Source: Crocinitomicaceae bacterium (GTDB lineage: Bacteria > Bacteroidota > Bacteroidia > Flavobacteriales_D > Crocinitomicaceae). Taken from it: a DNA stretch of 44,859 bases. Shown in pieces: positions 8,268 to 42,426 of the stretch (the stretch's first letter is position 1; the number at the start of each line of letters is the position of its first letter). Position numbers and translations under genes: made by a program. The stretch spans positions 1-44,859 of the forward strand of contig JALRJE010000025.1 in the NCBI GenBank assembly GCA_023268965.1, read 5' to 3'. The notes under the pieces were generated by a model. That model was not told the origin of the DNA. It did no database searches and saw only the letters and a program-made list of their open reading frames with translations.

Positions 8268-9332
8268 TTACGCTTTTCTATTGAATTCTTTCATTACGTC
8301 GACCAGTACTTGAACGCTTTCGATGGGCAAGGAGTTGTACATGGAAGCACGGTAACCACCCACTGAGCGGTGACCCGGGAGGCCAACAATCCCTGCATCT
8401 TTCCACATGGTGTCGAATTCGGCACTTCTTTCTTCGTTGGTGAGTAGAAATGTTGCATTCATGTGTGAGCGGTCTTTGGTCGAAACAGCACCTTTGAACG
8501 AAGGATTGTTATCGATTTCGGAATACAGTAGGTTGGCTTTAGCTTCATTGCGCTTTTGCTGTTCAGGCACTCCTCCATTTGCTAATAAATGACGCAGGTT
8601 AAGCATGGCTACATACACACTGAAAACAGGTGGGGTGTTCAGCATCGATTCTTTGTCAATTTGTTGTTTGAGGTCGAGGTAGGTGGGCATAAATTTGGCA
8701 GTACTTTTACCTAATGCATCGTCTTTAACAATGTAGAGGGTTGCCCCTGCAGGGCCAAGATTTTTTTGTGCACCAGCATAAATGAAGTCAAAATCAGCAA
8801 CGTTGATTGTTTTGGAGAAGATATCCGAAGACATATCGCAGACCAAGGGTAAAGTAGTTTTTGGAACATCCTTGAATTGGGTACCAAAAATAGTGTTGTT
8901 GCTCGTGAAGTGTAGGTAGTCAAGACCGGTCGGAACAACATAATCTTTTGGTATATAGCTAAAGTTTTGGTCTTCCGATGAGGCAAGTACTTCGACTCCT
9001 AATCCCATCTTTTGAGCTTCTTTAATAGCGCCACTGGCCCAAGTTCCTGTATTGATATATCCTGCTCTTTGGTGTTCGCGTTGCATGTTGAGTGCAGCAA
9101 TTGTAAAACCTAAAGTGGCACCACCTTGTAAAAAAGCCACAGAATAGCCTTTTGGAACATTCAAAGCTTGTTTGACTAGATCTAATGCTTCGTTCATGAC
9201 GGCCACAAAATCTTTGTGGCGGTGCGAGACCTCTAAAATAGATAAACCATTAAAGTCTAGTACTGCTGCAGAAGCCTCCTTGAATACTTCTTGCGGTAAA
9301 ATACATGGGCCCGCGCCAAAATTATGTTTCAT
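8268..9332 (-). CDS. serC: phosphoserine aminotransferase
   Basis: A 354-residue class V aminotransferase that converts 3-phosphohydroxypyruvate and glutamate into phosphoserine, with PLP. The FGAGPC start and the PLP lysine K190 in AGAQKNLGPAG are characteristic of SerC, as is the HRSVGGYRASMYN C-terminal signature. It is the first gene of the serC-serA operon. No perfect TAnnTTTG box was found in the short gap to the THX gene terminator, so the promoter is unclear. Confidence 0.96.
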   Translation of the reverse strand: MKHNFGAGPCILPQEVFKEASAAVLDFNGLSILEVSHRHKDFVAVMNEALDLVKQALNVPKGYSVAFLQGGATLGFTIAALNMQREHQRAGYINTGTWASGAIKEAQKMGLGVEVLASSEDQNFSYIPKDYVVPTGLDYLHFTSNNTIFGTQFKDVPKTTLPLVCDMSSDIFSKTINVADFDFIYAGAQKNLGPAGATLYIVKDDALGKSTAKFMPTYLDLKQQIDKESMLNTPPVFSVYVAMLNLRHLLANGGVPEQQKRNEAKANLLYSEIDNNPSFKGAVSTKDRSHMNATFLLTNEERSAEFDTMWKDAGIVGLPGHRSVGGYRASMYNSLPIESVQVLVDVMKEFNRKA

Positions 9333-26138: not shown

Positions 26139-26921
26139 TTAAAGCGTATCGGTTTTAATGTCATTAAGTTTGGCGCGTTCCCAGTAGCTGTCTAAATTTG
26201 CTAGCGATTGGTCTTGGGCGAGTAAGCCGTCGGCTTCCAAAAGCTTTTCCATTTGCTGAAAGCGCCTAATGAATTTTTGATTGGTTTGAGCCAGGGCATT
26301 TTCTGGCGATATATTTAAAAAGCGTGCGTAGTTCACTAGTGAAAACAGCACATCGCCAAATTCAGCTTCTATTTGATCTGAGTGGCTGTCTATTTCCACT
26401 TTAAGTTCGGCAATTTCTTCTTGTACTTTTTGCCAGGCGTCATCTGCTTTTTCAAAGTCAAAACCAACGCCTTTGACTTTCTCTTGAATGCGCGTGGCCT
26501 TGACCAAAGCAGGAAGGGAAGAAGGAACTCCTTCGAGCACAGATTTTTTTCCTTCCTTGAGTTTGAGTTTTTCCCAATTTGCTTTGACCGTTTCTTCGTC
26601 TATGGCTTCGGTATCTCCGTAGATATGCGGATGTCGGTAAATGAGTTTATCGCAGATTTTATGAAGGACGCTTTCGACGTCAAAAAGACCTTGTTCGCTG
26701 CCTATTTTACTGTAGAAAATTAAATGTAGAAATAAATCACCGAGCTCTCCCTCTAAACCAGCGTAGTCTTTTTCGGTAATGGCATCGGCCATTTCATACG
26801 TTTCTTCTATGGTGAGGTTGCGCAGGGTTTCAAAAGTTTGTTTTTGATCCCAGGGGCAGCGCTCCCGAAGTTCGTCCATGATTTGGAGGAGGCGTGCAAA
26901 AGCGATTAAACGAGAGTCCAT
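26139..26921 (-). CDS. mazG: nucleoside triphosphate pyrophosphohydrolase MazG
   Basis: A 260-residue tandem-domain MazG that hydrolyses NTPs and dNTPs to NMPs and pyrophosphate, cleaning the pool and lowering ppGpp effects in E. coli. The CPWDQKQTFETLRNLTIEETYEMADAI start, with the EExxE metal site, and the second EFGDVLFSLVNYARF block (ExxD) are typical. A TAACTTTG box lies only 4 nt before the ATG, so the mRNA may be leaderless. The divergent PagL-like gene has the same arrangement 45 bp away. Confidence 0.95.
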   Translation of the reverse strand: MDSRLIAFARLLQIMDELRERCPWDQKQTFETLRNLTIEETYEMADAITEKDYAGLEGELGDLFLHLIFYSKIGSEQGLFDVESVLHKICDKLIYRHPHIYGDTEAIDEETVKANWEKLKLKEGKKSVLEGVPSSLPALVKATRIQEKVKGVGFDFEKADDAWQKVQEEIAELKVEIDSHSDQIEAEFGDVLFSLVNYARFLNISPENALAQTNQKFIRRFQQMEKLLEADGLLAQDQSLANLDSYWERAKLNDIKTDTL

Positions 26922-41658: not shown

Positions 41659-41689
41659 TTTGCAGATCCAAAATACTGCCGTAAATTTG
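41659..41689 (+). promoter_or_regulatory. consensus promoter in the mnmD-Nudix gap
   Basis: TTTG (41659-41662), 19-bp spacer and TAAATTTG (41682-41689). This is the closest match to the Bacteroidota promoter consensus in the window, yet no protein-coding frame follows it on the plus strand. Confidence 0.6.
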
Positions 41690-41693
41690 CCCC

Positions 41694-41789
41694 AAGATTA
41701 CAGTTCATAGTTGTAGTTTTAGTTTTATAGTTTTAGCATGGTTTAGCAAAAAGAGGAACAAATAGCGTTTGTTCCTCTTTTTGTTTTTT
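41694..41789 (+). ncRNA. candidate small RNA of about 95 nt
   Basis: It starts from the consensus promoter (predicted start about 41694) and ends at the strong terminator at 41747-41789. The intervening RNA is U-rich with repeated UUUUAG-like units (around 41717-41746) and contains no reading frame beyond a two-codon one. It is flanked by mnmD (ends 41637) and the convergent Nudix gene. An unstructured 5' region followed by an intrinsic terminator is typical of trans-acting sRNAs. Alternatively the hairpin may simply end mnmD transcription. Confidence 0.45.
41747..41789 (+). terminator. strong Rho-independent terminator
   Basis: A perfect 16-bp stem (41747-41762 with 41768-41783, loop TAGCG) followed by six Ts (41784-41789). 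The T-run is on the plus side only, so it serves plus-strand transcripts. Confidence 0.85.
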
Positions 41790-41808: not shown

Positions 41809-42426
41809 TTAAAATTCCTTCAGTAGCAACTTAAGCTCATTCAAAATGAGTGCTGTTGCCCCCCAAACAATTTTTTCTTGTAGTACAAAACAAGGATGGT
41901 CTTTCAAAATCACGCCTCCCGGAATATGGATATCTTTTTGAATACAACTTTCTTGCTTTAATAGCTCTGAAATTGCGATACTAAAGATTTGCTGAACCTC
42001 TCTGGGGTCGGGTTGGAGGCGGGGTACACCTTCGTGCAGAAATACAAAAGGGCTGACTTCAAAACCCGAAACGGGGATCCATACGTTCGAAAGGGTTTTG
42101 ATATGCTGTCCGAAGTAGAGCGGAATTCCGATTTCTTCAAAGGACTCTCTTCTGGCGGTGAATTCGAGATGTAGATCTGTTGGGTCTGGTTTCCCACCTG
42201 GAAAGGCCATTTGGCCGCTGTGTTGCCCGTTGTAGGTACTGCGTTCGATCAAAATGAAATACCAATTAGTGTCTTTTTGATAGAAATGAATGGCTACTGC
42301 TGCGGGGCGTCTTTGTTGTACGGCATAAATTTGTTCAAATTCTTGTCGGTAACGCATGTAAGGGGCATGGGCTGCTTCACCTGGAAGTTCTTTTTCAAAA
42401 CAACGGAGCAACCGATCTCTATTCAT
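41809..42426 (-). CDS. Nudix hydrolase, coenzyme A pyrophosphatase-like
   Basis: A 205-residue Nudix protein. The box reads GGKPDPTDLHLEFTARRESFEEIGI, matching the pattern of CoA pyrophosphatases (NudL group, with MAFPGGK before it); the usual Glu near the start of the box is Asp here. CoA pyrophosphatases split CoA and acyl-CoA to 3',5'-ADP and acylphosphopantetheine. A near-consensus GAACTTTG lies 4 nt before the ATG (42438-42431), another possibly leaderless start. Confidence 0.85.
   Translation of the reverse strand: MNRDRLLRCFEKELPGEAAHAPYMRYRQEFEQIYAVQQRRPAAVAIHFYQKDTNWYFILIERSTYNGQHSGQMAFPGGKPDPTDLHLEFTARRESFEEIGIPLYFGQHIKTLSNVWIPVSGFEVSPFVFLHEGVPRLQPDPREVQQIFSIAISELLKQESCIQKDIHIPGGVILKDHPCFVLQEKIVWGATALILNELKLLLKEF

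Follow-up and report, generated by a model that had tools for sequence, protein, structure and literature searches.

The gap between an mnmD-like methyltransferase gene and a NUDIX hydrolase gene in a Crocinitomicaceae bacterium almost certainly holds a member of a genuine and previously uncatalogued small RNA (sRNA) gene family, as judged from comparison of related genomes. The representative lies at positions 41695–41789 on the plus strand of the window, which is the whole 44,859-nucleotide stretch of DNA that was analysed. With distinctly less confidence, we consider it probable that the gene stands on its own and encodes a trans-acting regulatory sRNA that pairs with mRNA starts, and that it represents a new family of the Crocinitomicaceae (Flavobacteriales). 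Sequence comparison shows the gene boundaries and promoter, both helices, the conservation of an unpaired core, and the independence of the RNA from its neighbouring genes.

Outside Bacteroides and Flavobacterium, almost no sRNAs have been described from Bacteroidota, a phylum in which such RNAs act without Hfq. The family described here occurs widely among a common group of aquatic bacteria, exhibits heavy covariation, and is present in the cultured genera Fluviicola, Brumimicrobium, and Lishizhenia. Its sharply bounded invariant core provides a handle for mutagenesis, and the alignment and covariance model are suitable for an Rfam entry.

Promoter and architecture of the RNA gene

The mnmD-like gene (PF05430; 40978–41637, plus strand) is located upstream of the sRNA, and the NUDIX hydrolase gene (PF00293; 41809–42426, minus strand) is convergent with it. 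The gap between them is followed by no close plus-strand gene, and it contains, just as the initial annotation had described, a promoter-like box that has no downstream gene on its strand. This putative promoter is of the Bacteroidota sigma-ABfr type and comprises a −33 element, TTTG (41659–41662, plus strand), followed after 19 nt by a −7 element, TAAATTTG (41682–41689, plus strand). TTG-N19-TAnnTTTG is a known Bacteroidota promoter form. Within the window, sequences of the type TTTG-N18-20-TAnnTTTG occur three times versus 1.2 expected, and 14 of 100 shuffled sequences do as well. The other plus-strand matches are at 8667–8697 and 26169–26200, and the N19 match at 8667 is as good as that of the sRNA. 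The initial annotation, which had called it the best consensus promoter in the window, needs correction on this point, although TTTG-N19-TAAATTTG is indeed present and is conserved in relatives.

Because the promoter pattern alone is at chance level in the window, comparison with homologues was needed to settle the question. TAnnTTTG is found directly upstream of 45 of the 49 homologues, versus 0–2 of 49 in control windows located further upstream. Similarly, TTG peaks at a spacer of exactly 19 from the −7 box (24 of 48 homologues), versus 0–6 homologues for most other spacers. It is this conservation across homologues, and not the match in a single genome, that leads us to take the promoter as real.

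A covariance model of the family, R1, derived from this locus, matches the window at 41694–41787 with an E value of 1.1e-23. The start of the RNA is placed near 41695, to within about 3 nt, because conservation begins there and because the promoter has the known Bacteroidota form. The predicted transcript is therefore about 93–95 nt long, in agreement with the approximately 95 nt proposed initially, although the terminator begins about 52 nt, rather than 60 nt, after the start.

Three parts can be distinguished along the plus strand. The first is a 5′ hairpin with arms at 41694–41703 and 41711–41720 and the loop UUCAUAG at 41704–41710. The second is a core, AGUUUUAUAGUUUUAGCAUGGUUUAG (41721–41746), which is unpaired in the predicted fold, is nearly invariant, and presumably serves as the functional surface. 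The third is an intrinsic terminator, whose perfect 16-bp stem (41747–41762 and 41768–41783, with the loop UAGCG), already recognized in the initial annotation, is followed by the U tract TTTTTT (41784–41789). Compared with shuffled sequences, the RNA folds much more stably (z −4.9), mostly owing to the terminator.

No reading frame is conserved in the sRNA copies, as had been anticipated from the window alone. A mini-ORF in the core, AUG-GUU-UAG, was considered and rejected: a stop comes two codons after the sole start codon, which lies in GCAUGGUUUAG and has been lost from several copies. The terminator hairpin (41747–41783) also yields a stable fold when read on the minus strand, where the NUDIX stop at 41809 is 26 nt away, and it probably ends the NUDIX transcript as well.

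Covariation of the hairpins and conservation of the core

The main alignment contains 49 rows, and pairing was judged against 500 shuffles and against versions in which the pairing was slid. (One row of alignment A3 is spurious, being L018 read on its opposite strand, and depresses the counts of that alignment a little.) Across the 26 proposed pairs, 95% of cells are paired; none of the 500 shuffles was as good, and the slid versions reached 62% at most. Compensatory changes on both sides are present in 20 of the 26 pairs (173 cells). In the 5′ hairpin, each of the 10 pairs has changed on both sides with pairing preserved, and 91% of cells are paired over the 49 rows, whereas the terminator hairpin has 97% of cells paired with double changes in 10 of its 16 pairs. 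When the alignment is confined to 22 sequences from within the genus, 97% of cells are paired and 14 are compensatory, which was equaled by none of 500 shuffles. Moreover, when copies are folded individually, nearly every one forms the 5′ hairpin despite its differing sequence.

The core is conserved in a very different manner. Over the 49 rows, mean column identity is 93% for GUUUUAUAGUUUUAGCAUGGUUUAG (41721–41746) versus 64% for the 5′ hairpin, whose loop reads UUCAUAG in 28 rows. When correctly oriented, the gaps of relatives present the identical order of elements, namely the −7 box, the hairpin, the core, and the terminator. In a BLAST search with a query of 301 bp, 32 of 60 relatives gave a match, and within the genus it is the gap, not the gene, on which the matches are centred. 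In one genome of the same genus, the gap DNA is 85% identical, whereas the neighbouring mnmD protein is merely 57% identical. The initial annotation had proposed a novel sRNA gene with its own promoter and terminator, and had made this depend on conservation of the box and hairpin between relatives. Both are conserved and the hairpins covary, which supports the proposal.

These data bear directly on an alternative in which the locus is only a bidirectional terminator common to two convergent genes, accompanied by a chance promoter. Although the stem would work on both strands and the promoter match by itself is at chance level, such an element would not explain the conserved promoter, the covarying 5′ hairpin, or the invariant core, and many loci have no convergent gene at all. 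Covariation and promoter conservation already contradict this reading, to which we give almost no credence.

Distribution of the family

Model R1 was searched against 399 genomes of the order and matched 168 of them. About 160 of these belong to the family of the window itself, Crocinitomicaceae, and span 18 genera, with the best matches having E values of 1e-24 to 1e-8 and at least 12 genera represented at E<1e-8. The remaining eight genomes, outside the family, gave weak matches. A public scan identified carriers that include Fluviicola chungangensis, Lishizhenia tianjinensis, Brumimicrobium oceani, B. aurantiacum, and many metagenome-assembled genomes (MAGs) labelled as Crocinitomicaceae. 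Contigs labelled as Polynucleobacter meluiroseus and Chitinophaga pinensis MAGs (L096 and L120) also carry the Crocinitomicaceae sRNA, and these labels look wrong.

A class-wide search yielded no convincing member outside Crocinitomicaceae. Weak R1 matches (E 1e-6 to 1e-3) from other families and from other orders proved to be A+T-rich terminators that lack the core, with a single exception. This locus (L257:1501–1598, from genome G124 of another family) carries UAUAGUUUAGCUUGGUUUAGG without an obvious promoter, and the sequence CUAUAGUUUAGCUUGGUUUAGGAAAACG preceding its hairpin resembles the core, either as a distant homologue or by chance.

Within the genus of the window, the element has been kept in more than 40 genomes. 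No copy was detectable in several near-complete genomes of this genus, so the sRNA is not essential. In one genome of the genus, G001, the mnmD site holds a divergent homologue (L028:1091–1161), in which the core is shortened to GGUUUAAUUGGUUUAGG and the terminator stem is G+C-rich and unrelated. Of all the copies, this is the one most like Bacteroides FopS.

Diverse genomic contexts

In the genus of the window, the sRNA sits between mnmD and a convergent gene. Its place in other genera varies: it may follow an ABC-3 metal permease or a ZIP transporter, adjoin sucD, or be located elsewhere. Some genomes carry more than one copy. Locus L216 of genome G355 has tandem copies at 1501–1600 and 1786–1885 that have the first part of the core in common and differ in its last 10 nt (GCAAAGUUUAGC, GCAGAAUUAAAC), and other genomes of that genus have two to four copies. 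The variety of gene neighbourhoods, together with the occasional tandem copies, indicates that the sRNA is an independent gene unit.

One type of neighbour deserves separate consideration. At about 15 loci, a DUF5723 gene lies on the same strand 13–160 nt past the sRNA, and TAnnTTTG is absent from 14 of the 15 intervening gaps. An outer-membrane-like gene of this type begins 41–67 nt past the terminator at L104, L118, L126, L131, L148, L210, L213, L215, L220, L221, L228, and others. Since these gaps mostly lack a recognizable promoter, expression of DUF5723 by terminator read-through is suggested, and some sRNA copies may additionally allow such read-through. Carried further, this arrangement could mean that the element acts in cis, as a 5′ leader whose terminator gates the downstream gene via read-through, and that the copy in the window is a relic. 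The DUF5723 loci, which are probably dependent on read-through, are what can be said for this explanation. However, the next gene is convergent in the genus of the window, where the element is nevertheless conserved across more than 40 genomes, and the downstream gene differs in Brumimicrobium and others. Furthermore, there is no conserved antiterminator pairing, because the sequence of the 5′ hairpin is free to vary. We regard a leader function as improbable.

Another recurrent association concerns divalent metals. The gene directly upstream is an ABC-3 metal permease at seven loci and a ZIP transporter at seven loci, and these associations are spread over many genera. Perhaps the sRNA originated as a unit next to a transporter of divalent metals and tunes metal homeostasis, by analogy with RsaC of Staphylococcus, which derives from the 3′ region of mntABC and has been reported to be part of the manganese-sparing response (PMC12421985). 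Like RsaC, the Crocinitomicaceae sRNA in several genera adjoins a metal ABC transporter operon on its downstream side. Nevertheless, RsaC comes from a distant phylum, and the Crocinitomicaceae sRNA carries a promoter of its own and is independent of the transporter, so the resemblance is an analogy only. The genus of the window, Brumimicrobium, and others have no such neighbour, and neighbourhood alone is no proof of function. This proposal concerns the role of the RNA and is compatible with a pairing mechanism; we think it unlikely, if somewhat less so than a leader function.

Probable pairing with mRNA starts, or possible binding of a protein

The scheme that we favour, in which transcription, base-pairing, targets, and protein partner are all things that we infer, is one of pairing. 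Transcription would start at the sigma-ABfr type promoter and end at the intrinsic terminator. The 5′ hairpin, whose sequence is unconstrained, would protect the RNA, and in many species it bears the loop UUCAUAG, which is complementary to start codons. The single-stranded core GUUUUAUAGUUUUAGCAUGGUUUAGC would be the working surface. Through short and imperfect contacts it would pair with several mRNAs around their A-rich translation starts and thereby alter how they are translated, much as FopS and GibS act in Bacteroides. In our estimation, such short-contact pairing is the likeliest mode of action, with a somewhat better than even chance of being correct.

Several observations bear on this mode of action, which the initial annotation had already suggested in the form of pairing with A-rich mRNA starts. 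Both the loop UUCAUAG and the CAUGG of the core are complementary to start codons (CUAUGAA and CCAUG). How often the core pairs with start regions was assessed on a sample of approximately 290 genes from two genomes, with 40 shuffled cores as the control and a cut-off of −10 kcal/mol. The genome of the window was represented by sampled stretches amounting to 400 kb. The real core gave 79 pairings versus 66.6 (sd 6.2) for shuffled cores in one set, and 95 versus 83.0 (sd 6.5) in the other. Shuffled cores paired as often as the real one in 1 of 40 and 2 of 40 cases; the excess is marginal and too weak to build on.

Searches for more extensive complementarity pointed to no long target. Antisense 19-mers with up to three mismatches recovered, from the genome of the window, the sRNA itself and a coding match on the sense strand. 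For 17-mers with up to two mismatches in 30 genomes, counts resembled those of backward controls once the sRNA itself was set aside. One candidate, an OmpA-like gene with UAAAACUGUAAAA upstream of its AUG in two genera, was rejected. The site lies within the upstream gene, in the stretch that encodes its C terminus, and its synonymous bases shift across 29 orthologues.

The main rival to pairing is that the three GUUUUA-like units of the core bind a protein, for example an RRM-1 protein, which the sRNA would then titrate. CsrB and 6S-type RNAs titrate proteins, and known sponges of this kind carry many sites. At 26 nt, the core exceeds a typical seed in both length and invariance, its GUUU(U)A units are repeated, no extended antisense partner of it exceeds the control, and RRM-1 proteins were present in all 12 genomes tested. 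Set against this, the tandem paralogues differ from copy to copy in the 3′ half of their cores (GCAGAAUUAAAC versus GCAAAGUUUAGC), which fits changing seeds better than a fixed protein site, each RNA offers a single short site where known sponges have many, and RRM-1 proteins also occur in genomes without a detectable sRNA copy. We consider protein titration rather unlikely, and clearly less probable than pairing.

Pairing at mRNA starts may nonetheless involve a protein. Hfq (PF17209) is absent from the genome of the window, which is 95% complete, and the likeliest protein partner of the sRNA would be an RRM-1 protein rather than Hfq. A more ambitious synthesis would make the RNA a family-wide regulator of new design. 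It would combine a free 5′ hairpin that has an anti-start loop in most lineages with a frozen 26-nt surface containing its own anti-start element, and it would exert RRM-1-mediated control over the translation of many surface- or metal-linked genes without Hfq. In some genera, a leaky terminator would in addition drive the adjacent DUF5723 gene. As a whole, this picture is speculative and unlikely to be correct.

Relationship to known RNAs

The expectation that the RNA is novel was borne out by Rfam, where no family reached threshold for the window sRNA; at E values up to 5, only terminator-like or chance matches were obtained. No mention of sRNAs in Crocinitomicaceae was found in the literature searched. 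In layout and likely action, the nearest known RNAs are two from Bacteroides, FopS and GibS. Both bind RbpB, an RRM-1 protein, and base-pair close to start codons, and FopS uses a sigma-ABfr promoter (PMC11697453). The likeness to FopS (RF04319, BTncRNA_FopS) and GibS (RF04182) lies in a layout with UUUCAUAGU in the seed region, an intrinsic terminator, and the setting of an Hfq-free phylum. In contrast, FopS has a single-stranded 5′ end and lacks the UAUAGUUUUAGCAUGG core.

Homology with FopS, a candidate prompted by UUCAUAGU and by the divergent copy at L028, was examined and found not to be significant. The best score of the FopS model was 17.3 bits (E 0.88), for that divergent copy, against a cut-off of 56 bits, and the window was also below threshold. 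The GibS model reached 18.2 bits (E 1.5) against a cut-off of 115 bits. A FopS profile built from 11 distinct viral-contig copies (nhmmer) recovered no member of the Crocinitomicaceae family among its matches. The R1′ sequence of FopS, GUGUUUUUCAUAGUAUUAGAUUUAAGGUUAACAAA, is absent from the Crocinitomicaceae sRNA, which has only UUCAUAG in common with it (28 of 49 rows).

Rfp18 of Flavobacterium is likewise a conserved intergenic sRNA of the Flavobacteriales, in which the third stem-loop has been described as the pairing site (PMC9723704). By this description it is set apart from the Crocinitomicaceae sRNA, which has two hairpins and would pair via its single-stranded core. GcvB of the enterobacteria is an Hfq-dependent RNA that pairs with many mRNAs through a long conserved single-stranded G/U-rich region. 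Although it is unrelated in sequence and structure, it resembles the Crocinitomicaceae sRNA in having a long single-stranded region for pairing.
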